Positions 4,343-44,668 of a DNA stretch of 48,620 bases are shown here, one piece after another. The notes below the pieces were generated by a model. That model was not told the origin of the DNA. It worked only from the letters and a program-made list of their open reading frames with translations, and searched no databases. The position numbers were made by a program, and so were the translations under genes. Every line of letters starts with the position of its first letter. Position 1 is the first letter of the stretch. The DNA is from Candidatus Zixiibacteriota bacterium (GTDB lineage Bacteria; Zixibacteria; MSB-5A5; GN15; FEB-12): NCBI GenBank assembly GCA_020351995.1, contig CP070674.1, positions 2,823,521 through 2,872,140 of the forward strand, read 5' to 3'.

Positions 4343-5839
4343 TTATTCCCCCTCCCCAAAAATCACTGCCTGAAATCGTTCGATCAGGGCGTCAGGGGAG
4401 AGGTAGGCGTCGAACGGAAGACCCGCTTTACGGCAGGTCTGCTGAAGAAACTCGGTTTCGGACCATCCGTAACTGGTCGCCACCTGCGGCAGAAGCAAAC
4501 CGCGCTGTGCGCCCAGCGTAATCATCAGTCCGTCGCGGCCAACTTTGATTTCGTCGAGCGACTCAACCTGCTGCAGCGGCGTCAGAACGGAGATCTCTAT
4601 ATGAAGGCCGGGCAATTCAGATGCGATAACAGGAGGAAACCGATAATCCTGCACCGCGGCCTTGATAGCACACTCGGATACCGCTTTATGCAGCGGCATG
4701 AAGGCGGTGGTGTAACCGATGCATCCGCGAAGCCGACCTTGTTTGGTCAGCGTCACAAAGGCGGCGCCGTTATCGCGCAGGATATCGGAAGTCTCGAAAG
4801 AGGGCAGCGGTTTCTTGTTCAAATGGCAGTCAATCGAGGTCCGTGCGATTTTCAGCAGTGTCTCCCGGTCGGCGGCGGTTAACTCATAATCCGTTGATTG
4901 CTCTTCGCGTGGTTCTTTCTCAGAGGATTTAACCGTATCAACATCGCCGGATTTGTAGATCGCGGCGGCGAGGTACCCGACTACAGTGGCTTTATCGCCG
5001 GAAGCATCACCCGAATCGCCGTATTTCAGTATCTTGACCTTGTCGGCGCCTTTAGCGATAGCGGCCCGCATAACCGCCACGGTCGCGATACCGCCGCAGG
5101 CCTCGGTCTTGCCCTGCTTCAGGTAAGACTCAAGGTCGTCGGGGTTCAGGCGCCTGATACAGTCGACGCCCACGGAGTCATACTTCCAGCCTTCCGAAGC
5201 CGGGCGGTAATGTTGCCAGTCGGTCGACGCCACCAGTATCGCGTCCTTACCGATATCGATACCGGCCATGGCGTCGGCGACATTCTCGACGACCTCCTGG
5301 TCGGGGTAACCGATCAGGAGCGGGACGATTTCGAAGTCTCTGAGAATCATCTGTAGGAATGGAAGCTGAACCTCCAGGCAATGCTCGGGCGCGTGCGGCT
5401 CCGGGAGTACGGAGATATTTTCATGGGAGGCCACCATTTGTTGACACACTTCTTTGTCGCACGGTATTTCCCCCAGCGGTGTTTGCCAGGTAATGTCCGG
5501 TCCGTAAACCGAAGCACCCTGAAAACCGATACGGTGAGCCGGACCGCACAGCACAACCGTTTTAACGTCGCTCCCTTCCAACAGCTTGTAGCTGTAGGCC
5601 GCAATTTGCCCGGAATAGACCAGGCCGGCGTGAGGCACAATCAGAGCCATTAACTGGCCGTCAACTTCAGGCAGGTCTTTGACTTTTCTCAAATAGTCCC
5701 TGACCACCTGGGTCAGTCTGGTGCTGTCACCAGGATAGAACGTTCCCGCCACGGCCGGTTTTCGGGTTTCGCCGTTGGCGCCGGCAAAACAGAGGACCAG
5801 CAGCAGGACGATCGCTGAAATCGGAAATAAGCGCTTCAT
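4343..5839 (-). CDS. Secreted MEMO-AMMECR1 fusion (AmmeMemoRadiSam system)
   Basis: A 498-residue two-domain protein. ATG 5839 is chosen because GGAGG lies a few nt upstream and it starts a clear Sec signal (residues 1-23). Residues about 27-300 are a MEMO domain. PHAG (His70), GPAHRIG (His102) and ACGG (Cys248) correspond by position to the metal-site residues known in human MEMO1. Residues about 320-498 are an AMMECR1 domain with the invariant LRGCIG (370-375). In most bacteria these domains are known as AmmeMemoRadiSam proteins B and A. Here they are fused and apparently exported. The gene is divergent, with a 92-bp gap, from a DUF362-radical SAM operon. Biochemical function is unknown. 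Confidence 0.85.
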   Translation of the reverse strand: MKRLFPISAIVLLLVLCFAGANGETRKPAVAGTFYPGDSTRLTQVVRDYLRKVKDLPEVDGQLMALIVPHAGLVYSGQIAAYSYKLLEGSDVKTVVLCGPAHRIGFQGASVYGPDITWQTPLGEIPCDKEVCQQMVASHENISVLPEPHAPEHCLEVQLPFLQMILRDFEIVPLLIGYPDQEVVENVADAMAGIDIGKDAILVASTDWQHYRPASEGWKYDSVGVDCIRRLNPDDLESYLKQGKTEACGGIATVAVMRAAIAKGADKVKILKYGDSGDASGDKATVVGYLAAAIYKSGDVDTVKSSEKEPREEQSTDYELTAADRETLLKIARTSIDCHLNKKPLPSFETSDILRDNGAAFVTLTKQGRLRGCIGYTTAFMPLHKAVSECAIKAAVQDYRFPPVIASELPGLHIEISVLTPLQQVESLDEIKVGRDGLMITLGAQRGLLLPQVATSYGWSETEFLQQTCRKAGLPFDAYLSPDALIERFQAVIFGEGE

Positions 5840-5895
5840 ATTTCCTCCATATCTCAGGATGCATAAGCGGCCATCCGGCGTCAAGGGGAAAACAG

Positions 5896-5931
5896 TTGTC
5901 GGATATTGGTTTGATTTAGTATAATATTTAT
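5896..5931 (+). promoter_or_regulatory. Sigma-70-like promoter giving a leaderless mRNA
   Basis: TTGTCG (5896-5901), an 18-nt spacer and a perfect TATAAT (5920-5925) are followed after only 6 nt by the ATG at 5932. Initiation at the usual distance would place +1 at the start codon. There is no Shine-Dalgarno, which fits a leaderless transcript. Confidence 0.6.
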
Positions 5932-6852
5932 ATGAGTCGGGTTATCGTGGTAAGATGGGCAGGTGGGAAAGCCGATTTCGGCCTTGATAAGGCCACCTAC
6001 GGGATTATGCTCGAAGCCGCCTTGAGAGCTCTGAGACAGACCGCTGATCTCGACTCGGTTATCGGCGATATGTTTCCGCGCGGAGCTATCGGCATCAAGA
6101 CCAATTGCCTGACGCGCAAGTTAAACTCTACGCCGGTAGCCCTGGCCGACGGCCTGGCCGAGATTCTGACCGAGCGCGGCGTTGACGAAAACAATATCGT
6201 CGTGTGGGACCGTTCCAATCGAGAACTCAGCGAGGCCGGTTTCCTTCTAAACGCCTCGTTCACCGGGCGTCGCTGTCTGGGCACGGACACCAGCGGTGTC
6301 GGCTACAGTAGCCGGTTTTTTGAGTCTGGTGGGGTCAACTCACTAGTGTCCGAGATCCTGACACGAACGGTTGAGCACAGTATCAACCTGCCAGTGCTCA
6401 AGGATCATTCTTTGGCCGGGATGTCGGCCGGGATGAAGAATATGTACGGAGCCATTCATAATCCTAACAAGTATCACGGAAACAACTGCAGTCCCTACTG
6501 CGCTCATGTTAGCAACCTGGCACCGATTAGGAGCAAACATCGCATGACAATTTTAGATGCCGTGCGCGTGCAGTTCAACGGTGGTCCGGGTTATATGGCG
6601 CAATACATTGAGACCTATGCCGGCATTATAGTCTCCGCTGATCCGATCGCCTGCGATCGGGTCGGTCTTGAGATACTGGAGCATATGCGCAAGAAATACG
6701 GTTTGCCGACACTCGAGAATGATGGTCGGCCCGTGAAGTATCTTCAGCCGGCAACCGAACTTGGCCTGGGTGAATCGGACCTGAGCAAGATTGAACTGAA
6801 AGTCCTCAGCGCTGACCAAACCGGAAGCGTGCGTGATGGAGAGTTATACTGA
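5932..6852 (+). CDS. DUF362 family protein
   Basis: A 306-residue DUF362 protein without an obvious export signal. The family hallmark LKDHSLAG-x-SAGMKNMYG is near residues 155-175, and a second conserved block, ILDAVRVQFNGGPG, follows. DUF362 proteins are often fused to or encoded beside ferredoxins and are thought to be linked to iron-sulfur redox chemistry; the reaction is unknown. The short NNCSPYC segment is the only cysteine pair. The stop TGA shares one base with the ATG of the radical SAM gene, so the two are co-translated. It is paralogous to the Tat-type DUF362 at 11813-12769. ATG 5932 is the only good start, just after the -10 box. Confidence 0.85.
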   Translation: MSRVIVVRWAGGKADFGLDKATYGIMLEAALRALRQTADLDSVIGDMFPRGAIGIKTNCLTRKLNSTPVALADGLAEILTERGVDENNIVVWDRSNRELSEAGFLLNASFTGRRCLGTDTSGVGYSSRFFESGGVNSLVSEILTRTVEHSINLPVLKDHSLAGMSAGMKNMYGAIHNPNKYHGNNCSPYCAHVSNLAPIRSKHRMTILDAVRVQFNGGPGYMAQYIETYAGIIVSADPIACDRVGLEILEHMRKKYGLPTLENDGRPVKYLQPATELGLGESDLSKIELKVLSADQTGSVRDGELY

Positions 6853-7988
6853 TGGATAGACGGGCATTCATGCGTTGTGTGGGTTGCACCGCCGCAGTTG
6901 CCGCTTCCCAGAACACTTTCCTGCCCCGATTTCTGGGGGGAATTCAAAACGCCATGGCTTTTGACTATGCCGACCAGCTTTCGTCGGTGGAGGCTCGCTA
7001 TTATAAAAAACGCGAAGGCGGGGGTGTTGAATGCGGCATCTGTCCCCGTCATTGTTATGTGACCGATCTCGAACGCGGTTACTGTGGTGTCAGGGAAAAC
7101 CGTGGCGATATCTACTACACGCTGGTATATGGGTTGGCCTGTTCGTTGAATGTCGATCCCATTGAGAAAAAACCCCTGTATCATTTTCTTCCCCGGACCA
7201 CCGCCCTTTCCATGGCTACCGCCGGATGTAATGTCAACTGCAAGTTCTGTCAGAACTGGGAAATTTCACAGGTGCGTCCGGAACAACTCAATAACCTTGA
7301 GTTGCCCCCCCGGGCGCTGGTTGACATCTGTCGTCAGCGAAACGTGCCCACAATCGCCTATACTTATTCGGAACCGGTTATCTTTTACGAATACATGTAT
7401 GATACCGCCGAGCTGGGACACAAACACGATATCAGGTCGGTCATGATAACCGGGGGATACATTGAGGAGAAACCGCTGGCGGACTTGCTTCCTCACCTCG
7501 ACGCGGTCAAAGTGGATCTGAAGGCAATCCGCGAGCAGTATTATAAAGACGTGGTCGACGGCGAACTCCAGCCTGTTCTGGACCGACTCGTTCAGATCAA
7601 GGAATCCGGCGTCTGGCTGGAAATTGTGTACCTGGTGGTGCCGACCCTCAATGATACCGATGCCGAGTTCAGAGAACTGGCTCAGTGGATAAAGACCAAC
7701 CTCGGGGCTGATACCCCGGTTCATTTTTCGCGATTCTTCCCGCAGTATCTTCTAAAAAATCTCCCGCCCACCCCGGAAAATACCCTTCAAAATGCCCATG
7801 ATATATGCCAGGCGGAAGGCTTGGAATTTGTTTACCTGGGAAACCTGCGAGGCCACCAGGCCGAATCAACCTATTGCCCCAAGTGCAGTAAAATGTTGAT
7901 TGGCCGACGTGGCTACACTATCTTCGAGTACAATTTGGACGGTAACCTCTGCAAGTTTTGTGGAAGGGAAATTCCCGGGCTGTTCTAA
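6852..7988 (+). CDS. AmmeMemoRadiSam-type radical SAM enzyme with Tat-like N-terminus
   Basis: A 378-residue radical SAM protein. The SAM/4Fe-4S motif CNVNCKFC is at Cys126, 130 and 133. An N-terminal cysteine group (C61, C64, C68, C78) and a C-terminal CPKC...CKFC pair suggest additional metal sites. The sequence from GICPRHC to the radical SAM core matches the pyruvate-formate-lyase-activase-like group found with MEMO and AMMECR1. The first residues, DRRAFMR followed by a hydrophobic AAVAA run, resemble a twin-arginine signal. If used, it would place a SAM-dependent enzyme outside the cytoplasm, which is unusual. It overlaps DUF362 upstream by 1 nt and abuts the next gene. Confidence 0.85.
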   Translation: MDRRAFMRCVGCTAAVAASQNTFLPRFLGGIQNAMAFDYADQLSSVEARYYKKREGGGVECGICPRHCYVTDLERGYCGVRENRGDIYYTLVYGLACSLNVDPIEKKPLYHFLPRTTALSMATAGCNVNCKFCQNWEISQVRPEQLNNLELPPRALVDICRQRNVPTIAYTYSEPVIFYEYMYDTAELGHKHDIRSVMITGGYIEEKPLADLLPHLDAVKVDLKAIREQYYKDVVDGELQPVLDRLVQIKESGVWLEIVYLVVPTLNDTDAEFRELAQWIKTNLGADTPVHFSRFFPQYLLKNLPPTPENTLQNAHDICQAEGLEFVYLGNLRGHQAESTYCPKCSKMLIGRRGYTIFEYNLDGNLCKFCGREIPGLF

Positions 7989-10121
7989 ATGAAACGCAGG
8001 GCATTCTTACTTGGGTTCTTTGCCATAGGGGGGCAGGTTCTTCTCCTGCGCGAACTGGTCGCGTCCCTTAATGGCGACGAGCTTTTCATATCCACGGCAC
8101 TGTTCGGCTGGCTGCTGGCGGTCGCGCTGGGAGCCTATTTTGGAGGGAAACCACAGCTCAGGGCCGACTCAGCCAGGCTTTTTGCCGTCGGCGCCGTACT
8201 GCTTGTTCTGACCGTAATTGCCATCAGGGTAATACCGATGATCATCGGTCAGCTACCCGGCGAGGTTGTGACGTTTAGCACCTCGGTCCTGATTTCGATA
8301 CTGGCCATGCTTCCCGTCGGGTTCATCACGGGCTGGTTGTTCCCCACCATTGCCGTGTTTGAAACGCGTGTCCGGGCAAGCATTGTCGGGGCATACCTTT
8401 TCGAAGGTCTGGGTGCCTTCGTCGGCGGTCTGGCTATTCTGTTTGTGGTCGGCGGCTTGCTTTCAGCTCTCGAAACCGCCGTGGCCATCGGAGCCATCGT
8501 TTCGGCCGCGGGTTTTGTCTTCAGCTACCGGCGCTGGTGGATAAGGGTTCCGGTGCTGGCTGCGCTGGTGGCCTTCCTTTGGTTTATAGTACCGCTGATT
8601 TCCATCGTGGAGCTGAGCCTGGAGAGATACCGGCATGAACCCTTCGAAATCAAAGAAACCTTTGACACACCCTACGGGCGCCAGACACTTCTCGCGCGAG
8701 AAGGGGAGCTTGTCCTTCTGACGGACAACACCGTCGAAGCTGTTTCCCCTGAACATTCGGCCGCCGAAAACCGGATCATCGCACCGCTGGTCTATCGTCC
8801 GGACGCGCGATACGTGCTTCACATCGGTCGGGCCGAATTCGGGGTGGGGCAGATCGTCGATAGCATAGGACGAGTAGAAATCTGGAGTGTCGATCCACGG
8901 ACACAACTGACTCAAACCGTTGACCGACACATCTTACCGCCTTTCACTCTTACCCGTAGTGAGGGAGACCTGTTCACCTACACCGCGGGCTTGAAGGTAC
9001 GGCGGCATGATATTGTCATCCTTGATGTGGGTTCGCTCGATACTTATAAGAGCAGTCGCTATGTAACTCCGTATGCCATGAGCCGGGTAAAATCGACTCT
9101 CGCTCGCGGAGGCGTACTGCTCATTCCGGTCGCCTACGATACCGACCGCTTCGTTGGGCCCGAGGAAGAGCAGATTCTGTCAACCATTCATAGTGTGATT
9201 GGAGACAATTTCGAATACACCGAGATTTGGCCGGGTAATCCAACATTGTTCTTTGCGTCTGACTCCTCGCTTTTTGACCTACCTTACGATACCATGATTG
9301 CCCGATTGGACAGTCTTCCTTATCAGGCCCAGTTCATAAGTGACAACTATCTGTTTGATCGTCTTGAAGGACTCAAACGAGAACGTCTGTACAATGCCGC
9401 CTTTCAACCCGCCATGCCGAACACTGTCGATAGACCGCTGTTGCCACACCTTCAGGCGTTGTTCCGGTCAAAAGCAAACGCGATTGACCACGCCGTGATA
9501 GGTGAAATTGTCAAACGCCCATACTGGACCATCGCCGTTCCGGCCGTCTTTGTTCTGTTTTTCCTGATTACGATTGTCACAAGATCTATCCGTGGCCGGT
9601 TTGCCCTGTTTTTATATTTTGTCGCGGGTTTCGTGTCACTGTCTCTTGAACTTGTATCTTTCTACGTTTATCAATCGTTTGCGGGGTCCTTGTATTCGGA
9701 GATGGCGGTACTCATCGGAGCTTTCATGCTTGGACTGGCGCTGGGTACCTTCTTTGCATCCCGGTCAGCCAGGGGCGAAATCGCTCATATTGGACTGTTT
9801 ATCTTATTCGTCATCACCATAGGTTTTGAACTTAGCTATGCGAGGCTGCCGATCAGCTGGGCGTTGTACTATCATACTTTTTTCCTCCTTGTATGCGCCG
9901 CAGCAACCGGAATACTGTTTGTGGGAGCGACCAGACAATTCTATGGTGAGCAGTCGCGCGAGAATCGTGGGCTTGGATATGCTTACGAAATTGCCGGTTC
10001 CTCGCTGGGCTCACTCTTTACCGTGACGGTGTTACTTCCGGTGATAGGTCTGACCTGGCTGCTTATCGGGATAGCGGCCCTGGTTGCGCTGGCCTACTTG
10101 GGGTTGTTAATTTCTCGCTGA
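7989..10121 (+). CDS. Polytopic membrane protein with spermidine-synthase-like domain
   Basis: A 710-residue protein starting immediately after the radical SAM stop codon. About seven hydrophobic segments (residues 5-205) precede a soluble domain of roughly 300 residues. This contains a spermidine-synthase-like Rossmann segment (RYVLHIGRAEFGVGQ, then VEIWSVDP). About six further membrane segments follow from 515 to the end. The GxGxG of true aminopropyl/methyl transferases is degenerate, so catalysis with SAM or decarboxylated SAM is uncertain. Such fused membrane/spermidine-synthase-like proteins are common and mostly uncharacterised. Its tail overlaps the convergent Fe-S gene by 15 bp. Context suggests a role with the MEMO/radical SAM set. 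Confidence 0.75.
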   Translation: MKRRAFLLGFFAIGGQVLLLRELVASLNGDELFISTALFGWLLAVALGAYFGGKPQLRADSARLFAVGAVLLVLTVIAIRVIPMIIGQLPGEVVTFSTSVLISILAMLPVGFITGWLFPTIAVFETRVRASIVGAYLFEGLGAFVGGLAILFVVGGLLSALETAVAIGAIVSAAGFVFSYRRWWIRVPVLAALVAFLWFIVPLISIVELSLERYRHEPFEIKETFDTPYGRQTLLAREGELVLLTDNTVEAVSPEHSAAENRIIAPLVYRPDARYVLHIGRAEFGVGQIVDSIGRVEIWSVDPRTQLTQTVDRHILPPFTLTRSEGDLFTYTAGLKVRRHDIVILDVGSLDTYKSSRYVTPYAMSRVKSTLARGGVLLIPVAYDTDRFVGPEEEQILSTIHSVIGDNFEYTEIWPGNPTLFFASDSSLFDLPYDTMIARLDSLPYQAQFISDNYLFDRLEGLKRERLYNAAFQPAMPNTVDRPLLPHLQALFRSKANAIDHAVIGEIVKRPYWTIAVPAVFVLFFLITIVTRSIRGRFALFLYFVAGFVSLSLELVSFYVYQSFAGSLYSEMAVLIGAFMLGLALGTFFASRSARGEIAHIGLFILFVITIGFELSYARLPISWALYYHTFFLLVCAAATGILFVGATRQFYGEQSRENRGLGYAYEIAGSSLGSLFTVTVLLPVIGLTWLLIGIAALVALAYLGLLISR

Positions 10122-11816
10122 TTGCTGCGTGGTGGAGCGAGGGGCAGGGGCTTTTTTGCGGTTTTTCTCCAGTAGAAACTGATTCTCGACGGAACGGGTC
10201 TCTCCTGCCGAGGTAATGTAAATCGCGGCACGATCGCTGATGGGGCAGGCATATTCGCAGGCGCCGCAACCGGTGCACAGATGCGGATCGACATAGGGAC
10301 GCTTGACTGCTACCGGGTTGCCCTTGCTGTCAAATACCGTTTCTTCTTTTAGATACACAGCTTTGGGTGAAGTCGGACACCATTCTTCGCACACGATACA
10401 CGGCGTAGCCATCGCCCACGGTAGACATCGACCCTGGTCGATAAAGGCGGTGCCGATACGATTCGGTGGTGTCTCTTTATCGCCCACTTTCTCCTGCAGG
10501 CTGAGTTCCATGATGGCTCCGGTAGGACATACTTGGCCGCACAAAGTGCACGTAGGCTCGCAATATCCGATTTTGGCGATCAGTATCGGCGACCACATGC
10601 TTTCAAGGCCGGCTTCGAGAAGAGTTGGATGCAGAGCGTTGTTCGGGCAGACTCGCATGCACTGCCCGCAACGGATACAACGCGCGGTGAACTCTTCTTC
10701 GGGAAGTGAGCCCGGCGGACGAATTAATCGCGGATTGGCGTTGACCGCAAAAGCATCACCTGACCGAAACAGGGGAAATAGAAGCAGGCCGCTCCCAACC
10801 GACAGCGCGGCCTTGCGACGGGTGATGTTTATCTGAGGTGTCCCGGCCGGATTGGCGGGGGTAACTTCCTGATTCGGGAACAGGCGGAAACTCAGGCAAG
10901 CTTCCGGGCAACTGGCCTGACAATTCAAACACAAATGACATTCGGCCTGACGCCACTTCCGGCCAATCTCCGGGTCATCGGCACCCTGACACGACAGCGA
11001 ACACAACTGGCAATGCTTGCACGAGGCTTCTTCCTTCTGCAGGCCCAGAAATGAGAATCGAGAAAAGATGGCCAGCAGAGCCCCCAGCGGGCAAATTCCA
11101 CGGCACCAGAAGCGGGTGAATAGTCGGTTGAGAGCCAGGATGATCAAAAACAGGGTGCCGATAGTGAGGATGGTGTGAAAGAAACTCTGCTTGTAGGTCA
11201 GGAGCAATGGTGCCACTGTGTCGTAGACACTCTGGGCACCACTTGCGAGCGCCGGCAGACCAAGCCCCTTTACCCATTCGAGCGTTCCATTTGCTGCTGT
11301 GTGAAGCATCGGCAGCACAACGGTTCCTATAGAACGCGCCAGAAGCGCCAAAGGATCAAGAAGACCGATCTGGAGAGAACCGAGAAACGCCGCCCCCAGG
11401 AAGACCAATAATACATAGTATTTGATGCGCTGATACTTCATGTACCGGTTAGACCGGATTTTTCCCACCCCTTTGCGGCGTAACCGTTCCGAAGGAATCT
11501 CCGATACCCAGTGATTGAGTGTTCCCATCGGACAAACCCAGCCGCAGAAGAAGCGACCGAAAAAGATGGTGGGGATAAGTATTACCAGCGACCAGAGTAA
11601 TCCTTTATAGAGCGTGCCGCTCGATAGAATTGTCCCCAGGGCTACCAGCGGGTCAAATTCAAGAGCGATCGATACCGGGTAGGGCAGACGAATCTCCGAT
11701 GGATCGGCGGGGTTGAAGTTTACCTCGAACGTTGTTTTCAATATCAGCCAGAAGAAGATTCCGAAAAAGATAATCTGTGAGATTCGCCGAAGGTTTCTGA
11801 CTGCTTTGATTGTCAT
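10107..11816 (-). CDS. NapH-NapG-like membrane polyferredoxin fusion
   Basis: A 569-residue iron-sulfur protein. Residues 1-250 are NapH/MauN-like: several membrane helices with CGWVCP (91-96) and CRGICP (238-243). Residues 266-305 hold two cysteine clusters (CKHCQLCSLSC, CHLCLNCQASCP). At 333-357 there is an internal Tat-like signal (TRRKAALSVGSG then a hydrophobic run). After it comes a NapG-like module with four cysteine clusters (CIRCGQCMRVCP, CEPTCTLCGQVCP, CIVCEEWCP, CTGCGACEYACP). NapGH proteins pass quinol electrons to the periplasm; here both halves are one chain. ATGA overlap with the upstream DUF362 gene indicates one operon. Confidence 0.85.
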   Translation of the reverse strand: MTIKAVRNLRRISQIIFFGIFFWLILKTTFEVNFNPADPSEIRLPYPVSIALEFDPLVALGTILSSGTLYKGLLWSLVILIPTIFFGRFFCGWVCPMGTLNHWVSEIPSERLRRKGVGKIRSNRYMKYQRIKYYVLLVFLGAAFLGSLQIGLLDPLALLARSIGTVVLPMLHTAANGTLEWVKGLGLPALASGAQSVYDTVAPLLLTYKQSFFHTILTIGTLFLIILALNRLFTRFWCRGICPLGALLAIFSRFSFLGLQKEEASCKHCQLCSLSCQGADDPEIGRKWRQAECHLCLNCQASCPEACLSFRLFPNQEVTPANPAGTPQINITRRKAALSVGSGLLLFPLFRSGDAFAVNANPRLIRPPGSLPEEEFTARCIRCGQCMRVCPNNALHPTLLEAGLESMWSPILIAKIGYCEPTCTLCGQVCPTGAIMELSLQEKVGDKETPPNRIGTAFIDQGRCLPWAMATPCIVCEEWCPTSPKAVYLKEETVFDSKGNPVAVKRPYVDPHLCTGCGACEYACPISDRAAIYITSAGETRSVENQFLLEKNRKKAPAPRSTTQQSARN

Positions 11817-12769
11817 TCGGTGATTTCCTTGTATCCGGCGGCCCTGTAGTCGATAGTTCCCAACCCAGTCTTTTCGGCCAATACAATGTGACCGACATTC
11901 TCGGCGCTCAGGCCTAAGAATTCCGCCGCGCGCGCGTCGGCCGCAACCTGATCGGTGGCGCAGATAACTGAGTCCTCGATCGCCACATCATCGAGTGACC
12001 CCCCGGTGGGCCCGTTTCGAAAGAGGATTCTGGTTGCGTCGGTCACTGTAAGCGTCGGTGTGCTGAATGCGGCCAGGTCCACAATCGACTGGTCAATCTT
12101 CTGATGAAGTTGGCTGCGGCGTCCCCCAAGGATGCCGTACAGGTTCTTCATAGCGACGGTACAGCCCGATAAAGAGTGATGCTTGACAATAGGCATATTA
12201 ATGAGCCGGTCCGTCTGGACGAAGTATTTGAGAACCGGCCAGGTCGTAAGTAATTTGCCGCCGATATCGGTGGTAATGTAGTCCGAGGCTTGCGGCAGTA
12301 TCACGGTTGCGCCGGCTTTTTCTGCAGCCTCGCGGATCCCCGAACGGATAAAACAGCGGCGAGCGTCGTGACAGGGAACATCGGTAACAATAACTTCACT
12401 TGCCCCGGCTTGGAGGCAAAGTCGTACTACTTCTCCAACGAGGATAGGATTAGTGTCGGCAGCCTGCTGCGGGGTCCGATCCCATCCTATATTGGGTTTT
12501 ATGGTAACTTTTTCCCCGGGTTGTACGAATCGCTTGATGCCACCAACGGCGTCAAGCGCATAGCCAAGCGCCGCTATGGGGTCTTCATGTTTTGAAAGTG
12601 TGATGCGGGGGAGAGTCGGATCCGGTGGGACCTCAAACGAGCCAGTTTTTACCGTCAGAGGTGTAAATCTGGCCGTCGACCGGTTGTGAAAAAAGCCGTA
12701 AGCACTGGCGGTACCGGCCGCTAACAGTGCGGCTTTACCTGCTTTTTGAAGAAACTCGCGACGACGCAT
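11813..12769 (-). CDS. DUF362 protein with Tat signal peptide
   Basis: A 318-residue DUF362 protein. From ATG 12769 it begins MRRREFLQK followed by a hydrophobic AALLAAGTA stretch, a canonical twin-arginine signal, so it should be exported folded. An in-frame GTG at 12778 would only add three residues. It shares VKHHSLSG and AMKNLYG with the DUF362 at 5932-6852, making the two paralogs. It overlaps the start of the NapHG-like gene by four bases (ATGA). A periplasmic DUF362 coupled to a membrane polyferredoxin suggests it is an electron acceptor or substrate-handling partner of that protein; this is inference. Confidence 0.85.
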   Translation of the reverse strand: MRRREFLQKAGKAALLAAGTASAYGFFHNRSTARFTPLTVKTGSFEVPPDPTLPRITLSKHEDPIAALGYALDAVGGIKRFVQPGEKVTIKPNIGWDRTPQQAADTNPILVGEVVRLCLQAGASEVIVTDVPCHDARRCFIRSGIREAAEKAGATVILPQASDYITTDIGGKLLTTWPVLKYFVQTDRLINMPIVKHHSLSGCTVAMKNLYGILGGRRSQLHQKIDQSIVDLAAFSTPTLTVTDATRILFRNGPTGGSLDDVAIEDSVICATDQVAADARAAEFLGLSAENVGHIVLAEKTGLGTIDYRAAGYKEITE

Positions 12770-14688: not shown

Positions 14689-14731
14689 CAATGTAACTGC
14701 GGTCTGTCTGCAAGCCCGCGGGTGAAACTTG

Positions 14732-15577
14732 ATGGTGAAGATCATCTATTCGAAAAAATGTCTGGAGTTCGGCCAGCCCGGGCACCCCGAATCGCCGGAA
14801 CGGATACGCTCCATTTATGAACATCTCAAAGATGACTGTGAGATTGTCCAGCCGATGGCCGCGACCGAGGCCGACATCCTGTCCGTGCACACCGCTGACC
14901 TCGTACAGCAGGTGAAATCCGGGCGATTTTACGATGCCGACACCCCTGCTTATTCTGACATCTTTTCGTACGCGCTTCTGGCCGCAGGTGGAGCGCTAAC
15001 CGCGACGGAGTTGATGCTGGGCGGTACGCTGTCCATGTCGCTGATGCGTCCGCCGGGTCATCATGCCGGCAAAGGTTTTCTGGGTGGGTTTTGTTATTTC
15101 AATAACGTGGCTATTGCGGTTGTCAGAGCTCTCAACGATATTGACAGGGTGGCGATAATCGATTTTGATTGCCATCACGGTAACGGTACCCAGGATATTT
15201 TTGTGGGACACGACAGGGTCCTGTACGTCTCTTTGCACCAGAGCCCGCTTTACCCGGGAACCGGATTTCGCTCCGAGCTGAATTGCCTGAATTATCCTGT
15301 AATGGCAGGTTCGGGCGAAGTTGAGTATCTGGACGAACTCGACCGGGCTCTTGATGAAGTGAGTGATTTCGAACCGGGTGTGGTGGCTGTTTCGGCAGGC
15401 TTCGATACTTTCAAAGAAGATCCGCTAACGAACGTGGTACTTGATGTAGGTACCTATGAGAAAATAGGCGATCGTATAAAATCGCTGGGCAAACCGATTC
15501 TTACGGTGCTTGAAGGGGGATATTCAGAAAAGCTGGCCGAGTGTGTTAGCAGCTACCTTAAAGGATTGGAGCGGTGA
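14732..15577 (+). CDS. Histone-deacetylase-family amidohydrolase
   Basis: A 281-residue class II HDAC/acetoin-utilisation-like protein with all metal and catalytic residues: PPGHH (His110, His111), DFDCHHGNG (Asp146, His148), SAGFD (Asp225) and EGGY (Tyr264). It is a zinc deacetylase acting on acetyl-lysine, acetyl-polyamine or similar amides; the substrate is unknown. ATG 14732 is used; a preceding TTG is possible. The stop TGA is followed directly by the GTG of archease, implying tight translational coupling. Confidence 0.85.
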   Translation: MVKIIYSKKCLEFGQPGHPESPERIRSIYEHLKDDCEIVQPMAATEADILSVHTADLVQQVKSGRFYDADTPAYSDIFSYALLAAGGALTATELMLGGTLSMSLMRPPGHHAGKGFLGGFCYFNNVAIAVVRALNDIDRVAIIDFDCHHGNGTQDIFVGHDRVLYVSLHQSPLYPGTGFRSELNCLNYPVMAGSGEVEYLDELDRALDEVSDFEPGVVAVSAGFDTFKEDPLTNVVLDVGTYEKIGDRIKSLGKPILTVLEGGYSEKLAECVSSYLKGLER

Positions 15578-16033
15578 GTGGGGAACAACAAGCAGGGCGG
15601 AAATCGTTCGCAAGGTCATTATGAATTTATCGAACATACCGCTGATATAGCTATCAAAGCGTATGGTGACAGTCTGGAGCAGGCTTTTGCCGTGGCTGCC
15701 TCTGCCATGTTTGACATTATGACCGACGGCGCCGCCGTGGTGTCCGAAGAAAGCATCGACTTCGACACTGAATCTGTTGATCGGGAGGGTTTACTTGTTG
15801 GCTTCCTATCGGATCTTATTGTTCTGCACGAGGTGCAGGGCTACGTCTTTGGGGAATTTGAAATTACATTTTTCGGTGAGAACCGGCTGAGGGCGCGCTG
15901 CCGTGGGGAAATGTTCGACGAAAGCAGACATGCCTCCGGACTTCACGTGAAGGGCGTATCATATCATATGCTGGAAATGTTTGACGGGGCCGGCGAGAAG
16001 CCCAGTTTTGTTCAGGTCCTATTCGATGTCTGA
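15578..16033 (+). CDS. Archease
   Basis: A 151-residue archease, the activator that speeds multiple-turnover guanylylation of RtcB. It begins with GTG immediately after the HDAC stop. Conserved features are FIEHTADIA (Asp23, a metal-site residue in the family), the mid-protein FLSDLIVLHE, the KGVSYH block and the VLFDV end. Its position 69 bp upstream of rtcB is the standard functional pairing. The first 12 residues are polar and may be an extension. Confidence 0.9.
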   Translation: MGNNKQGGNRSQGHYEFIEHTADIAIKAYGDSLEQAFAVAASAMFDIMTDGAAVVSEESIDFDTESVDREGLLVGFLSDLIVLHEVQGYVFGEFEITFFGENRLRARCRGEMFDESRHASGLHVKGVSYHMLEMFDGAGEKPSFVQVLFDV

Positions 16034-16102
16034 TAGAATCCGTATTTGGGCCCGGTTCTCCGTATATCTTAAGGCATAAAACCTCGGCAGGAAGGACAAA
16101 GA

Positions 16103-17581
16103 ATGGCCTGGAAAGGACCAATTGACAAATTAGATGCCAACCGGTTTCAGATTCCGGCCTCATATCAGAGTCAAACGATGAAGCAGCACGGTGTGCGAAT
16201 GAGTGTGCCGGCGGTCATCTATGCCGATGACCGGATGCTGCAAGCCATTATTCGGGATGATTCCCCCGAGCAGGTGGCTAATGTTGCGACGCTGCCGGGG
16301 ATAGTCGGTCGGTCGATAGCCATGCCGGACATTCATCATGGGTATGGATTCGCGATTGGTGGCGTAGCCGCATTCGACTCACAGAGCGGAATCATATCGC
16401 CCGGTGGCGTAGGGTACGACATAAATTGCGGCGTCCGGCTGCTTCGCACCGATCTTACCGTGCCCGATGTCAAGAAACACATCGAAAAGCTGGTCAACAC
16501 CATGTTCAGCAACATTCCGTGCGGAGTAGGCTCGGAAGGTAAAGTACATCTTTCACCCGCCGACATGAACCGGGTACTGGAGGACGGCGCCCGGTGGGCC
16601 GTAGAGAATGGCTATGGCTGGGCCGAGGATTTGACCTTCACCGAGGAATCGGGCAGCATCGAGGGCGCCGAGGCCAATGTCGTAAGCGATGCCGCCAGGA
16701 AGCGCGGTTCGCGCCAACTCGGCACACTGGGAGCCGGGAATCATTTTCTGGAAATTCAACGTGTGGAAGAAATCTATGACACGGTAGTCGCGGAGGCTTT
16801 CGGTATTACGGCCGTCGACCAAATTACTGTGATGATTCATACCGGTTCTCGAGGCTGCGGTCACCAGATCTGCACCGATTACCTCGAATTGATGCGCCGG
16901 GCCAACAAGAAGTACAACATACCGCTCATTGACCGTGAACTGTCCTGCGCGCCCGCAACCAGCCCGGAGGGGCAGCAGTATTTCACAGCCATGAAGTGCG
17001 GGGCTAATTTCGCCTGGGCTAACCGTCAGATGATAACACATTGGGTAAGAGAGTCGTTTGAGTCGGTCCTGGGTCAATCATCTCAGAGTATGGGACTGCG
17101 CCAGATATATGATATCGCCCACAATATCGCCAAACTCGAAGAGCATGAGTTTGAAGGGAAGAATCGTTGGCTTTACGTCCATCGCAAAGGAGCCACCCGG
17201 TCATTCGGGCCGGGGCATAAGGATATTCCCGAAAGATACCACGGTGTCGGCCAGCCGGTGCTTATCCCCGGCGATATGGGTACCGCCAGCTATCTGCTGG
17301 TCGGTACGGAGCAGGCCATGCGCGACACTTTCGGCTCGTCTTGCCACGGAGCCGGGCGGAGCCTGTCCCGTCATGCCGCTCGCAAGCAGCATCCGCCCGG
17401 GAAAGTGTTTTCCGATCTGGAGAGGAAAGGTATATACCTGCAGGCAAAGAGCCGAAAGGTAATTTCTGAGGAAGCTCCGGAGGCTTACAAGAACATCGAT
17501 GAGGTCGTTGAAATATCCGATCGCGCGGGCATTGCCCGTAAGGTCGCGCGCATGAAACCACTTGGTGTTGTCAAAGGGTAG
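16103..17581 (+). CDS. rtcB: RNA-splicing ligase RtcB
   Basis: A 492-residue RtcB, which joins 2',3'-cyclic phosphate or 3'-phosphate RNA ends to 5'-OH ends using GTP and Mn2+. Metal ligands align with those known in the Pyrococcus enzyme at a near-constant offset: Cys109, His214, His246, His340. The guanylylated His is His415 in CHGAGR. GVGYDINCGVR, GAGNHF and HTGSRG are all intact. AGGAAGGA precedes the ATG. It is full length, with archease directly upstream. No RtcR-type sigma-54 regulator is adjacent, so the genes may be constitutive. It may serve in tRNA or stress RNA repair. Confidence 0.95.
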   Translation: MAWKGPIDKLDANRFQIPASYQSQTMKQHGVRMSVPAVIYADDRMLQAIIRDDSPEQVANVATLPGIVGRSIAMPDIHHGYGFAIGGVAAFDSQSGIISPGGVGYDINCGVRLLRTDLTVPDVKKHIEKLVNTMFSNIPCGVGSEGKVHLSPADMNRVLEDGARWAVENGYGWAEDLTFTEESGSIEGAEANVVSDAARKRGSRQLGTLGAGNHFLEIQRVEEIYDTVVAEAFGITAVDQITVMIHTGSRGCGHQICTDYLELMRRANKKYNIPLIDRELSCAPATSPEGQQYFTAMKCGANFAWANRQMITHWVRESFESVLGQSSQSMGLRQIYDIAHNIAKLEEHEFEGKNRWLYVHRKGATRSFGPGHKDIPERYHGVGQPVLIPGDMGTASYLLVGTEQAMRDTFGSSCHGAGRSLSRHAARKQHPPGKVFSDLERKGIYLQAKSRKVISEEAPEAYKNIDEVVEISDRAGIARKVARMKPLGVVKG

Positions 17582-19783: not shown

Positions 19784-20338
19784 ATGGAAAACCTCTACCG
19801 TCAGATACTTGAAAAGGTTGGTGAAGACGTTAACCGGCAAGGTCTCAGGGATACTCCGAAGCGGGCCGCCAAAGCCATGGAATACCTTACGCAGGGATAT
19901 AATGTTGATCTCGACAAGCTGGTCAACGAGGCCCTGTTCGATTCAGATACCAGCGAGATCGTCCTGGTGAAGAACATTGAACTGTATTCCTTATGCGAAC
20001 ACCATCTATTGCCGTTTATAGGCAAATGTCATGTAGCGTATATTCCGGATGGAAAAGTGATCGGTGTCTCCAAAGTGGCACGAATCGTGGATGTCTTCGC
20101 GCGTCGCCTGCAGATTCAGGAGAACTTAACTCGCCAAATAGCCGAAACGGTGGAAAAATACACAAAGGCTATCGGCGTCGCGGTAGTCATTGAGGCGCAA
20201 CATCTCTGTATGATGATGCGCGGTGTGGAGAAACAGAATTCGATTATGACAACGTCATGTGTTCTCGGAGAGTTTCATGATGATCCGTCGACACGGGCCG
20301 AGTTCTTTAGCCTGATAAAACCATGCATCTTTCCATAA
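19784..20338 (+). CDS. folE: GTP cyclohydrolase I
   Basis: A 184-residue FolE, which converts GTP to 7,8-dihydroneopterin triphosphate. Zinc ligands Cys71 and His74 (LCEHHLLPF) and Cys142 (HLCMMMRG) have the same 71-residue separation as in the E. coli enzyme. The catalytic-region sequences [11 protein letters not shown] and RLQIQENLT are intact. Its last 16 bases overlap the start of the PTPS gene in another frame, so the two are translationally coupled. A 10-base palindrome ATCTATAGAT (19754-19763) lies just upstream. Together with the next two genes it would feed tetrahydrobiopterin synthesis. Confidence 0.95.
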
Positions 20339-21555
20339 GCAAGCGTTTTGAGTTTTCCAGTTCGCACCGATCGTTTGTGAGGGGCTGGACTGAAGCGCAG
20401 AATCAAGCTTTCTTTGGACGGGAGGCCCTGAGCCCCAACGGACACGGCCACAATTACGTCGCCAGTTTCGCCTTCAACGGTCCGGTTGACCCAAAGACGG
20501 GGATGATGATCAATGTCGTGATCATCAAAGAAAAGATCAAGGAGGTCATTGATAACCGTTACGATCACAGGTATCTAAATGATGACGTGCCGGCCTTCCA
20601 AGACATCGTTCCCACTGCCGAGAATGTTACGGTGTCCCTCCTGCGCGATGTTGTTCCACTATTCAACGACGTAACCGCGCAACCGAGCGTGTGCCACCTA
20701 GCTGAATCGCCCGCGAGCGAGGCCACTGCCTATGCCGGGGGAGAAGTCGAGAGACATCTCTGGATGAATTTCTCGGCGGCCCGAAGAACCTGCTCACCGC
20801 ACCTGACAGATGCGCAGAACGAGGAGTTGTTTGGGCGGGCGGCATCGACCTCCGGCCACGGACATCATTACCGACTAAGGGTGACACTTCAAGGCCAGGT
20901 TGACGGCGTCCATGGGATGATCTTCCCTGAGAGGGAAGCCAGGGAGATTTTATCGGAACTGCACCATCAGCTCGATCACCGAAACTTGAGTACGGATGTC
21001 CCGCAGCTGCGAGACATGCCTATGACCACGGAGATGCTGTCGCTCTATTTCTTTGACTACTTGAAAACTCGCATGCCCGTGAGCAGAGTGAAACTTTACG
21101 AAAATGATGAGTTCTTCGCCGAATACTTAGGCAGCAACAGATGGTTTATGGCATACACCGGTGAGTTCCATGCCGCCCACCGCCTGCATTGCCGGGAGTT
21201 AACCGAGGCGGAAAATCTTTCCGTCTACGGAAAATGCAATAATCCTCGTGGTCATGGTCACCTGTATCGTGTGGAGTGTTCCATCGAAGGAAGCGCTGAC
21301 AGGGAATCGGGAGTGCTGTATAAACTTGATGACCTCATTCGTTCCATCAATACTCAATTAGATGACTGGAACTATAAACATCTGGACCTTGATACGTCTG
21401 ATTTCACAGACAAAACCACTACCGGCGAGAATATTCTAATGGTGTTGTGGTCCAAACTTGAGGTGTCTCTTGGCAACAGATTGAGTCGTCTTCGCCTGTG
21501 GGAAACACCGAACAATCGTTTTTCACTTCGCCGCGGTATTGACGATCGAACGTAA
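20323..21555 (+). CDS. Tandem triple 6-pyruvoyltetrahydropterin synthase-like protein
   Basis: A 410-residue chain of three PTPS/QueD-type domains (about 1-130, 143-268, 275-403), where the family is normally one domain of 120-150 residues. Domain 1 keeps zinc ligands His15, His41, His43, Asp81-His82 and Glu100 but has no catalytic Cys. Domain 2 has Arg154 in place of the first zinc His, keeps His179/His181, Asp218-His219 and Glu237, and also lacks Cys. Domain 3 has His286, Cys305, His311, His313 and Glu369, but Asn350-Tyr351 where Asp-His is expected. All three retain a C-terminal pterin-anchor Glu (128, 260, 394). Placed between folE and an SDR it is likely the second step of pterin synthesis. 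Confidence 0.85.
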
Positions 21556-22260
21556 ATGGAAACAGGTATGAAAAGGTGTTTGATAACCGGCGCCAGCCGG
21601 GGCATAGGTCGTGCGATAGCAGTAAAATGCGCGGCAGACAGATATGATGTCATTGCCCACGGTCGCGACCAGAACGCTCTGATAGAAACTGTCGGTTTGA
21701 TTGAAGCGAGCGGTGGACGTGCTCGGATGATGATTGCCGATTTGTCGACACGTGCGGGGATCGACAGGATCATCGGTGACCTGGGAAAAGGTTCTCTTGA
21801 CCTCTTGGTCAACAATGCCGGGGTGGCGATAGTGAAGCCTTTTGAGCAGATTTCTGACGAAGAATGGTCACAGACGCTGGCAGTGAATGTGACGGCTCCA
21901 TTTATGCTAATCCGTGGACTTGCGCCCATTATGCCTGAAGGATCCTCAATAGTGAACGTTCTGTCCGTGGCCGCCCGGACTGGATTTCCGCACTGGAGTG
22001 GATATTGCATGAGCAAATTCGCTCTTGATGGTCTCGCCCGGTCGATCCGGGAGGAGTTACGGGCACGCCGGATCAGGGTCATAAATATTTATCCCTCAGC
22101 GATCAGGACGTCGATGTGGGAGGGGATAGAAGGGGACTGGTCGGCTGACCGAATGGTTTCCCCGGACGAGGTCGCCGAGGCTGTTCATTTCGCGATATCG
22201 AGGCCTGCCGGAGTGCTGATAGAAGATATTTCCGTAGGTGACATAAGTGGCACCCTTTAG
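21556..22260 (+). CDS. Short-chain dehydrogenase, candidate sepiapterin reductase
   Basis: A 234-residue classical SDR. It has TGASRGIG (cofactor glycine motif), NNAG, a catalytic Ser in NVLSVAA and YCMSK (YxxxK). The first ATG follows the PTPS stop directly; ATG 21568 is an alternative start. By sequence alone it could be a 3-oxoacyl-ACP reductase or other SDR. The folE-PTPS-SDR order makes a 6-pyruvoyl-tetrahydropterin/sepiapterin reductase the favoured role. The usual PG-x-V-x-T segment after the active site is YPSAIRTSMW, a divergence that could reflect substrate. Confidence 0.75.
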   Translation: METGMKRCLITGASRGIGRAIAVKCAADRYDVIAHGRDQNALIETVGLIEASGGRARMMIADLSTRAGIDRIIGDLGKGSLDLLVNNAGVAIVKPFEQISDEEWSQTLAVNVTAPFMLIRGLAPIMPEGSSIVNVLSVAARTGFPHWSGYCMSKFALDGLARSIREELRARRIRVINIYPSAIRTSMWEGIEGDWSADRMVSPDEVAEAVHFAISRPAGVLIEDISVGDISGTL

Positions 22261-24418: not shown

Positions 24419-27208
24419 ATGAAAAAGTATCTTCAGTCCATCATCGACATTCGTAAGGGAGAGGTAGCCGTTACGCTGCTGCTCTTTGCGAACATCTATT
24501 TGCTGCTGCTTACGTATTATCTTCTTAAGCCCGCGAGCAGGAGCCTGTTTCTGGCCAAGGTCGGACCTGACCAGCTTCCATTTGTCTTTATCGTGATAGC
24601 CTTTGTCATTGTACCGGTGACAACGCTGTATTCGCGGGCCAGTCGTGGTCTGAGACTGAATCATCTGATAACCGTAACCATGACGATCATAGTGATTTGT
24701 CTGTTTGCATTGCGCTGGCTGATGACTTTGCCTCATTTCTGGGTCCCATATGTTTACTACACTTTTGCCAGTATATATGGCGTGCTATCAACGTCTCAGT
24801 TCTGGCTTCTGGCCAACGCCGTTCTCAACGCGGCGCAGGCTAAACGTCTTTTCGCCCTGCTAGGTCTGGGCGCCATTTTTGGGGCCTGGACGGGAGGTGA
24901 GGTTACGAGCATTATTGTCAAAACCTTTAATATTGCCACCGAAGATCTCGTTTATTTCTCCGCAGGTATCATTGTACTAAGCATGGCTGCTACGTGGGCG
25001 GTCTGGTCGATGAGAAAAGCAGAAATTGAAGAGCCGGCGCCGGCGCAAGCTAGAAAGGCGGTTAAAAGAGAAACGATTGGCGACATGTTCGGGTCGATAA
25101 AGCGCTCGCGGCATTTGCTGTTAATCGTCGGTATCATGACAATGACCATGATGGTAGCGGCGTTGGTCGAGTGGCAGTTTCAAACCGTGTCAACCTTCCA
25201 TTTTACCGACTTAGCCAACGGCGAGGTGGATAAATCGGCGCTGACGTCCTTTCTCGGCAAGTTTTATGGCCGATTGAGTCTCGTTTCAATCCTGTTGCAG
25301 ATTGTTTTTGCCTACCGCTTTCTCCGGGTTCTCGGTGTTGGGGGCGTTATTCTCTTCCTTCCGCTGGGTCTTCTCCTTGGTTCAACTGCTCTAATTTTCA
25401 ATGTGAGCCTGTTAACGGCCGTATTGTTGCGGGGCGCCGACGGTAGCCTCAAGTATTCTATAGACAAGACCGGCCGCGAATTACTTTACCTTCCAGTCCC
25501 TCTCGAACTGAAGAAGAAAACAAAGGTGTTCATCGATATGTTCATCGACCGGTGGGCGCGTGGTGCCACCGGTGTCCTGTTGATTCTTTTGATGGCGGCG
25601 TTTGGTTATGATTCCGATCCCATGGAAGCTGTCCGTAGGATGGGTTTTGTTGTCCTAGTGTTTCTCGCGGTTTGGATTGTGTTTGCGTTAAAGATGCGGC
25701 GCGAGTATGTCAATACTTTTAGAAAAGCGGTAGAAAAGAGAGAGATAGATCTGAGCGAGGTCCGCGTACGCCTGAACGAATCAGCGACCATTGCCACTCT
25801 GGTCAATAGCTTGAAGAGTGAGAACGACCGGGAAATAGAGTACGCTCTGGGTTTACTGGCCGGATTGCAGAACCCGAATCTGGTGGAACCCCTGAAGCCG
25901 CTTTTGAACCATCGCTCGGCCGACATAAGAAGGAAAGCAATTCATGTGCTTATGGCCCAGGCTGACAAGACCTTAGTACCGGAAGTCGAAAAGCTGATGG
26001 ATGATGATAATGTCGAGGTGCGCCGGGATGCGATGTATTTCATGTCAAAATTGGCCGATAGCGACCGTAAGCAGATGCTGAAGGAATTCTTAGCCCATCC
26101 TGAACCGAAGTATCGCTGTGCTGCTGTTTCGAGTATCGCCGTTTATGGCTCTCCCGACGAGAGACGGATGATAGACGAAAACAGCCTGGAGTCGCTTGTC
26201 AACCTTCCCGGCGAAGAGGGGGTGATTGCCCGTCGGCAAGTTGCGGGGGCACTTGGCTATCTTGGTGACGCCGGATTCAACAAGTACATCAGGCGCGTCC
26301 TGGATGAACCCGATCCCGGAGTCGTATCTAACACAATCTGGAGTATCGGCAGGCTAAGAGTCCGCGAACTCGTGCCCTGGCTACTGAACGCTCTGGCGGA
26401 TAGCCGTTATCGCCCCGACGCACGCGCAGCGCTGGCATCGTATGGAAGCTCTGTATTAGGAACACTGCTTGATTATTTGATGGACGATAGAACAGCATCG
26501 GCGATCCGGCGCAACATTCCTCGCGTAATGAGCCAGATTCCGGTACAGGAGTCGGTCGATGGTCTTACGGCTAGCATAAGCAAGGTCGACCCGTATCTGA
26601 AGTATTATGTTGTAAAAGCCCTGAATCGACTGCGCAATGAACATCCGGACTTGAAAATAGATGCTGTGAAAGTGGACGATGCTTTGATTTATGAAACCAA
26701 ATCTTACTACCGATCCGTTCAGCTTATTCGGGCACACGGTACCGAGCCCAGCGATGGCTCACGTCTGCTGTTGCGGGCTCTGCAGGAGAAGCAGGATCAA
26801 AATCTGGAACGTATCTTCCGTATTCTCGGATTAACATACCCGCCTTCCGACATACACAGCGCTTACCTTGGCATCGTCAGTACGAAGCGCACGCAGCGGG
26901 CCAGCGCTGTAGAGTTTCTTGATAATCTGCTGAAAAGTAACATCAAACGATATCTGTTTCCAATACTGGACGAGTCTTCCGCAGAAAGAGTTGTCCGCAA
27001 GGGCGAAGAACTTTTCGGCATCAGAGTGACCACCAGGGAAGAGGCTCTGGAGGGAATAATAAAGGGCCGCGATGCCTGGCTAAAGGTGTGCGCCATATAT
27101 TGCTGCAAGGGGGGTATGACTGAGCGGCTCCGGGCGGCCATAGAGTCAGCGGTCGGCGACGGTGACCCGGTTGTCAGGGAAACAGCTGAACTGGTGTTAA
27201 AGTCCTAG
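24419..27208 (+). CDS. NTT-like nucleotide transporter fused to HEAT repeats
   Basis: A 929-residue protein. Residues 1-440 form a 12-helix transporter whose opening LLKPASRSLFLAKVGPDQLP resembles ATP/ADP translocases (Npt/NTT family). The middle contains the polar RPAR-like and FYGRLSLVS segments. Residues about 455-929 are HEAT repeats with recurring HRSADIRRKAI and NVEVRRDAMYF helices. Similar Npt-HEAT proteins in other bacteria often end in a cyclic-nucleotide-binding domain. Here that domain is encoded separately 81 bp downstream. Whether it transports nucleotides or acts as a sensor is unknown. Confidence 0.75.
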   Translation: MKKYLQSIIDIRKGEVAVTLLLFANIYLLLLTYYLLKPASRSLFLAKVGPDQLPFVFIVIAFVIVPVTTLYSRASRGLRLNHLITVTMTIIVICLFALRWLMTLPHFWVPYVYYTFASIYGVLSTSQFWLLANAVLNAAQAKRLFALLGLGAIFGAWTGGEVTSIIVKTFNIATEDLVYFSAGIIVLSMAATWAVWSMRKAEIEEPAPAQARKAVKRETIGDMFGSIKRSRHLLLIVGIMTMTMMVAALVEWQFQTVSTFHFTDLANGEVDKSALTSFLGKFYGRLSLVSILLQIVFAYRFLRVLGVGGVILFLPLGLLLGSTALIFNVSLLTAVLLRGADGSLKYSIDKTGRELLYLPVPLELKKKTKVFIDMFIDRWARGATGVLLILLMAAFGYDSDPMEAVRRMGFVVLVFLAVWIVFALKMRREYVNTFRKAVEKREIDLSEVRVRLNESATIATLVNSLKSENDREIEYALGLLAGLQNPNLVEPLKPLLNHRSADIRRKAIHVLMAQADKTLVPEVEKLMDDDNVEVRRDAMYFMSKLADSDRKQMLKEFLAHPEPKYRCAAVSSIAVYGSPDERRMIDENSLESLVNLPGEEGVIARRQVAGALGYLGDAGFNKYIRRVLDEPDPGVVSNTIWSIGRLRVRELVPWLLNALADSRYRPDARAALASYGSSVLGTLLDYLMDDRTASAIRRNIPRVMSQIPVQESVDGLTASISKVDPYLKYYVVKALNRLRNEHPDLKIDAVKVDDALIYETKSYYRSVQLIRAHGTEPSDGSRLLLRALQEKQDQNLERIFRILGLTYPPSDIHSAYLGIVSTKRTQRASAVEFLDNLLKSNIKRYLFPILDESSAERVVRKGEELFGIRVTTREEALEGIIKGRDAWLKVCAIYCCKGGMTERLRAAIESAVGDGDPVVRETAELVLKS

Positions 27209-40904: not shown

Positions 40905-40919
40905 CAACGACACCAATCC

Positions 40920-43238: not shown

Positions 43239-43259
43239 TAAAGGGAGATTTAAAATCCA

Positions 43260-44662: not shown

Positions 44663-44668
44663 AACATT

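Follow-up and report, generated by a model that had tools for sequence, protein, structure and literature searches.

A stretch of 48,620 nucleotides from the genome of a Candidatus Zixiibacteriota bacterium (GenBank assembly GCA_020351995.1, contig CP070674.1; hereafter the window) carries what is probably an extracytoplasmic paralogue of the AmmeMemoRadiSam system, predicted to work at the periplasmic face of the membrane together with a conserved set of envelope partners. The system comprises a radical S-adenosylmethionine (SAM) enzyme (rS, TIGR04337) and the proteins AmmeMemoRadiSam A (AMMECR1, TIGR04335) and B (MEMO, TIGR04336), the latter two being fused in the window (MEMO-AMMECR1). The window set shares with it all three domains, which score above the NCBIfam cut-offs (26 bits for MEMO, 99 for AMMECR1 and 220 for rS), as well as the Cys motifs and the SAM-site residues, but it differs from the other copies in this comparison, which are unsignalled, by its Sec (general secretory) and Tat (twin-arginine translocation) signals and by its envelope partners. 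Radical SAM enzymes are treated as cytoplasmic, since they depend on SAM and on a strong reductant and have to be shielded from oxygen, and to our knowledge their chemistry has so far been found only inside cells. In this regard, a search of the open-access literature returned nothing usable on a periplasmic radical SAM enzyme, on periplasmic SAM or on the function of the AmmeMemoRadiSam system. An earlier sequence-only reading of the window had proposed this localisation, which comparison with homologues now supports on a firmer basis.

The source genome consists of one contig of 3.6 Mb, and its close named relatives are metagenome-assembled genomes of Candidatus Zixiibacteriota. All six open reading frames singled out by that reading were confirmed at their stated positions (Table 1). 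The genes for a first DUF362 protein (DUF362a), rS and a membrane protein with 14 transmembrane (TM) segments follow each other head to tail with zero spacing, and the MEMO-AMMECR1 gene diverges from this run. The gene for a NapH-NapG fusion polyferredoxin (NapHG) converges with that of the membrane protein, and its start overlaps by 4 bases the gene of a second, Tat-tagged DUF362 protein (Tat-DUF362). In Acidobacteriota the six genes are clustered again in a different order (loci L107, L108, L118, L129, L130 and L134).

Export signals and phylogeny of the radical SAM enzyme

The TIGR04337 domain of the window enzyme begins only at residue 48, behind MDRRAFMRCVGC...NAMA/FDY, and almost all of the 25 relatives from the same order share an N-terminus of the form M-x-RR-x-F...AxA. 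The RR-x-F-hydrophobic motif, the uncharged stretch, the AxA-type site and their conservation among orthologues are those of a Tat substrate, and the source genome encodes TatC (234 bits). The sample of the exported-type clade comprised 105 rS sequences, namely these 25 and 80 from distant loci, chosen by similarity to core patterns and to the whole query; since the signal rule played no part in that choice, the signals at the distant loci constitute a largely independent observation. A strict Tat rule (RR, hydrophobic residues at positions +3/+4 and an uncharged stretch of 12 residues) was passed by 25/25 sequences of the order, 63/80 distant ones and hence 88/105 of the whole clade, in comparison with 0/16 unsignalled paralogues and 18 of 939 (2%) unrelated flanking reading frames taken as background. 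The Tat-like N-terminus pointed out by the sequence-only reading is thereby borne out across relatives. Four distant enzymes score Sec-like instead, and among the 13 uncalled ones RR, KR or RK motifs were found by eye in eight, the other five being truncated or unclear. A chance RR motif was rejected on these counts. A wrongly annotated start was discarded as well, because the RR start is conserved and the window's reading frame cannot extend beyond five codons upstream.

In other phyla the rS signals are typical of Tat substrates and unrelated in sequence to the one in the window, so what appears to be conserved is exportability and not the sequence of the signal. This bears on the proposal that the N-terminus is a conserved cytoplasmic extension, for instance a docking segment with RR and CxGC, that would keep rS inside while only MEMO-AMMECR1 is exported. 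Within the window's order the conservation of the segment (CxGC, LGGIQNAxAFD) indeed exceeds that of most signal peptides and its hydrophobic stretch is modest; however, the replacement of the segment elsewhere by unrelated Tat or Sec-like signals retains only the export potential, none of the 16 enzymes of the unsignalled class has the segment, and the adjacent MEMO-AMMECR1 is itself predicted to be exported, which altogether make this proposal highly improbable.

A tree of 121 rS cores, from which the N-termini had been removed, resolved three types as one clade each: the exported one (support 98), the unsignalled one (100) and a third class, also without signal (100). The exported clade spans at least 13 phyla and is old. 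The third class occurs in a few genomes of the family (L069-L072, in G011, G022, G007 and G024) and gives the top TIGR04337 scores, from 600 to 653 bits. Homologues in the same gene context but without signals, which would have spoken against export, were looked for and not found, the signals being kept over many phyla.

The catalytic residues are intact throughout the exported clade: CxxxCxxC, Lys224 and four auxiliary cysteines (61/64/68/78) are invariant (105/105), position 174 is Glu in 103 sequences and Asp in two, and almost every sequence has a C-terminal CxxC pair. A decayed enzyme was discarded on these grounds. The closest solved relative by sequence is pyruvate formate-lyase activase (PflA; PDB 3c8f/3cb8), in which CxxxCxxC, a GGE-like Glu and the Lys occupy corresponding positions; PflA, in contrast, is cytoplasmic and has neither the auxiliary N-terminal Cys motif nor the C-terminal CxxC pair of rS.

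Two compartment-matched sets

The MEMO-AMMECR1 fusion starts at the ATG at 5839, whereas the mechanical reading frame begins at a TTG at 5884, and a classical signal peptide follows that ATG, in agreement with the Sec signal assigned to it earlier. Its PDB matches are human MEMO1 and archaeal AMMECR1 proteins, and the His/Cys residues of the metal site and the LRGCIG motif are conserved. A hydrophobic-signal rule was passed by 51 of the 57 orthologues encoded beside an exported rS, most of the remaining six being acceptable by eye, in comparison with none of 21 unsignalled paralogues of the relatives, so that the putative Sec signal is kept in orthologues and absent from the signal-less paralogue.

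The source genome holds a second rS (C1:675815, 326 bits) and a second MEMO-AMMECR1 fusion (C1:877692), both signal-less, and therefore two AmmeMemoRadiSam sets: one signal-less pair elsewhere and the window pair, with its predicted Tat and Sec tags. The same division was found in the relatives examined, where the cassette copies of both proteins are signalled and the other copies are not. In this line, nearly all of 16 distant genomes encode a signal-bearing MEMO-AMMECR1 fusion, including genomes (Aminicenantes) in which its gene is not linked to that of rS; most of them additionally hold a signal-less MEMO that is usually unfused. In a MEMO tree the signal-bearing copies group together, with 4 changes in comparison with 28 in shuffles. 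Such duplicated, compartment-matched pairs point to a need for rS and MEMO-AMMECR1 to be in the same compartment, which offers a clue to what MEMO1 and AMMECR1, also known as human proteins of medical interest, may do.

Envelope partners of the exported set

The comparison showed that the putatively exported rS travels with DUF362a, the 14-TM protein, NapHG, Tat-DUF362 and DUF6599. Counted over 61 genomes of the order as both present, exported rS only, partner only and neither, the figures were 32/3/4/22 for Tat-DUF362 and 33/2/4/22 for NapHG. Restricted to genomes with a completeness of at least 90%, they became 25/0/1/13 for either partner, the single exception (G051) being an assembly of about 400 contigs. 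The NapHG group is unlinked from rS in many genomes and co-occurrence is nonetheless almost perfect, so the coupling exceeds the hitch-hiking of neighbours. These observations also bear on the existence of two unrelated modules, in which DUF362a, rS, the membrane protein and MEMO-AMMECR1 would merely lie close to an independent electron-transfer module of NapHG, Tat-DUF362 and DUF6599. Such an arrangement would account for the NapHG group being elsewhere in the genome in many relatives and absent within 10 kb at many distant loci, but it leaves unexplained both the co-occurrence of unlinked genes and the re-clustering in Acidobacteriota, and we give it very little credence. On sequence grounds, the NapHG polyferredoxin is a real partner of the predicted exported set.

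NapHG had been described as a NapH-NapG-like fusion whose internal Tat-like segment places its ferredoxin half outside, and this description was confirmed: a 4-TM NapH part with cytoplasmic Fe-S motifs is followed by an internal ITRRKAALSVGSGLLLFPLFRSGDAFA and by a four-cluster NapG part, with 16 conserved cysteines, that is predicted to be periplasmic. Its scores lie below the cut-offs of both families (97 against 269 bits for the NapG equivalog and 76 against 213 bits for the NapH subfamily). A polyferredoxin of the same architecture, PFD of the delta-proteobacterium MLMS-1, was shown by experiment to need both Sec and Tat (PMC5449189). NapHG shares with it, and with the NapGH quinol dehydrogenase, the 4-TM NapH part, the twin-arginine before TM5 and the multi-cluster C-terminal domain, but it differs in being tied to the exported rS set, and no nitrate reductase genes were noticed in the window.

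The clear Tat signal noted before in one of the two DUF362 proteins was upheld, as the Tat N-terminus of Tat-DUF362 is present in its orthologues; the protein has conserved cysteines at 121, 136 and 142 and no ferredoxin motif. A lipoprotein or secreted protein of family DUF6599 (PF20244) was encountered at 29 loci, and in one of the Acidobacteriota (L107) it forms a fusion with the outer, periplasmic end of NapHG. In the source genome it is encoded at C1:3338358-3339239, unlinked to the window set, and linked or unlinked it is a seventh partner of the set.

Table 1. Features of the putatively exported AmmeMemoRadiSam locus (positions in the window)
Feature	Position	Strand	Evidence
MEMO-AMMECR1 fusion (AmmeMemoRadiSam B and A), putatively exported paralogue	4343..5839	-	TIGR04336 250.9 bits, TIGR04335 173.5 bits
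Predicted Sec-type signal peptide of MEMO-AMMECR1, MKRLFPISAIVLLLVLCFAGANG	5771..5839	-	sequence; orthologue conservation
Promoter TTGTCG-18-TATAAT, ending 6 bases 5' of the DUF362a ATG (leaderless arrangement)	5896..5925	+	
DUF362 protein a (DUF362a), LarA-like fold, no signal peptide	5932..6852	+	PF04015 60.8 bits
AmmeMemoRadiSam radical SAM enzyme (rS), putatively exported paralogue	6852..7988	+	TIGR04337 364.2 bits (cut-off 220)
Predicted Tat signal peptide of rS, MDRRAFMRCVGCTAAVAASQNTFLPRFLGGIQNAMA	6852..6959	+	RR and AxA-type site kept in order; strict Tat rule 25/25
14-TM membrane protein, spermidine-synthase-like soluble domain (~8655-9470)	7989..10121	+	profile, AlphaFold2, Foldseek
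NapH-NapG fusion polyferredoxin (NapHG)	10107..11816	-	NF007012 97 bits, TIGR02163 76 bits
Predicted internal Tat segment of NapHG, TRRKAALSVGSGLLLFPLFRSGDAFAV, fifth TM	10734..10823	-	sequence; RRK conserved in 24 homologues
DUF362 protein with Tat signal MRRREFLQKAGKAALLAAG (Tat-DUF362)	11813..12769	-	PF04015 157 bits; ATG 12769, GTG 12778

DUF362a and the site of the chemistry

In 20 of 27 relatives the DUF362a ATG is immediately preceded by a TATAAT-like box, to which a TTGACA-like box is often added further upstream, and the gene is apparently leaderless in the window organism. A wrongly annotated start was ruled out by this promoter. DUF362 and LarA (DUF2088) belong to one Pfam clan (PMC11770544), a link that was all the papers on DUF362 yielded, and the AlphaFold2 model of DUF362a (mean pLDDT 97) gave Foldseek matches to malate racemase (7s91, E 1e-5, probability 1.0) and, also with probability 1.0, to 9eid and 4nar. 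The model thus places DUF362a in the fold of the LarA superfamily of nickel-pincer racemases, from which it differs by a moderate TM-score of only about 0.5 and an identity of 11-14%. No Cys is conserved across 64 homologues, and a ferredoxin-like electron carrier was discarded for that reason. Of the electron route formerly proposed, through the polyferredoxin and DUF362, the polyferredoxin stood as a partner, by its co-occurrence and its dual Sec/Tat type, whereas DUF362a, with a LarA-like fold and no conserved cysteines, makes a poor carrier.

The favoured explanation is that rS would fold and acquire its Fe-S clusters in the cytoplasm before export by Tat, while MEMO-AMMECR1 would cross by Sec, and that both would work together outside. 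A competing view holds that the SAM chemistry precedes export: rS would act in the cytoplasm, either on itself or on a partner folded together with it (DUF362a, for example), and Tat would then carry out the completed enzyme, which might work only once, or a complex holding SAM or product, so that the periplasmic task needs no free SAM. Tat is generally known to export folded, cofactor-loaded proteins and hetero-complexes (see also PMC10924467), and an unsignalled DUF362a whose stop codon overlaps the rS start would fit a piggy-backing partner. The problem of SAM supply would likewise disappear. Yet MEMO-AMMECR1, if exported by Sec and thus unfolded, could meet rS only outside; DUF362a carries a Tat signal of its own in 14 of 26 Acidobacteriota (strict rule), which argues against piggy-backing as a general solution; and an electron-wire gene, NapHG, persistently co-occurs. 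On balance, cytoplasmic chemistry followed by export seems unlikely.

Electrons and SAM outside the cytoplasm

Within the preferred scheme of a joint action of rS and MEMO-AMMECR1 outside, the NapHG wire would carry an electron to the rS cluster, and the enzyme would generate from SAM a 5'-deoxyadenosyl radical. This radical might activate or modify MEMO-AMMECR1, following the logic of a PflA-like activase, or else act on a substrate that is later processed at the MEMO metal site. The sequence-only reading had the electrons coming from quinol. However, quinol cannot reach the potential of about -450 mV or lower that radical SAM clusters need, and it is therefore a doubtful reductant for rS; a low-potential cytoplasmic donor such as ferredoxin, acting at the inner Fe-S sites of NapHG, would be a more plausible source.

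The puzzle of how SAM would be supplied outside the cytoplasm, already recognised in that reading, still stands, and the linked membrane protein, to which that reading gave no interpretation, may have a bearing on it. The profile of its family matched PDB 1uir (132.6 bits, residues 223-494), its AlphaFold2 model (pLDDT 93) showed a layout of seven TM segments, a soluble domain and seven further TM segments, and Foldseek paired the soluble domain with 1uir at an E value of 1e-9. The positive charges of the loops alternate in 65 homologues (K+R 1.6-3.7 in inner loops and 0.1-0.8 in outer loops), and by the positive-inside rule the soluble domain is therefore predicted to face the periplasm. It resembles spermidine synthase (aminopropyltransferase; PDB 1uir, 3o4f) in fold and profile, but it lies between two 7-TM bundles and on the predicted periplasmic side. 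A nucleoside motif, GGG..VELDP, is kept in most homologues beyond the window's order, whereas the region of the catalytic Asp for aminopropyl transfer is replaced (NxPxPxTAQ), and the proper motif for decarboxylated SAM (dcSAM) and the catalytic Asp of spermidine synthases were not found in the window protein. An ordinary spermidine synthase was ruled out by the degenerate motif and the replaced Asp region, and a literature search on membrane-bound spermidine synthases brought nothing informative. The protein is a candidate SAM carrier or binding protein. A broader scheme, in which a complete radical SAM pathway operates in many phyla on the cytoplasmic membrane's outer face, with this protein transporting SAM, or an analogue (an adenosyl-sulfonium compound), across that membrane and presenting it through its periplasmic nucleoside-binding domain and NapHG delivering low-potential cytoplasmic electrons, is one that as a whole we consider rather unlikely.

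Several points weigh against extracytoplasmic chemistry. We know of no source of SAM in the periplasm, and the low potential required by the cluster is out of reach for quinol. Within the window's order the membrane protein has a degenerate SAM/dcSAM-site motif (IGRAEFG/DPR in the window copy), a loss that argues against the simple SAM-carrier version. DUF362a has no signal peptide in the same order; while the targeting of rS and MEMO-AMMECR1 and the outward partners agree with the earlier idea that the whole chemistry runs outside, this protein would need piggy-back export or a cytoplasmic role. In two Omnitrophota (L161, L175) a strongly hydrophobic Sec-like start replaces the Tat signal of rS, an unexpected feature in an Fe-S protein, which would then either have to receive its clusters outside or be held by a membrane anchor. 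Moreover, the export signals were called by a home-made rule together with conservation, the distant genomes are nearly all metagenome-assembled, and the Fisher test of rS co-occurrence (p ~1e-9) ignores kinship. Even so, given a Tat-tagged radical SAM clade whose partners are predicted to be exported likewise, both radical SAM chemistry outside the cytoplasm and the supply of SAM can be tested directly.

Other genes in the window

Elsewhere in the window, GTP cyclohydrolase I, a triple-PTPS (6-pyruvoyl tetrahydropterin synthase) protein and an SDR reductase are encoded in a row (19784-22260), which looks like a tetrahydropterin pathway; the three tandem PTPS domains in one chain of 410 residues represent an unusual fusion. 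A row of genes for an HDAC-like deacetylase, an archease (PF01951) and an RtcB-like RNA ligase is found at 14729-17581. A protein of 929 residues (24419-27208) fuses a TLC-type ATP/ADP transporter domain with HEAT repeats, in a genome of free-living size. Hydrogenase maturation genes, by sequence HypB-, HypF-, HypD- and HypE-like, occupy 40233-45730. Finally, a short RecA-like protein (PF00154) encoded on the minus strand at 3-1542 adjoins a reading frame resembling a Y-family polymerase, in the manner of an ImuA-ImuB-type mutagenesis pair.

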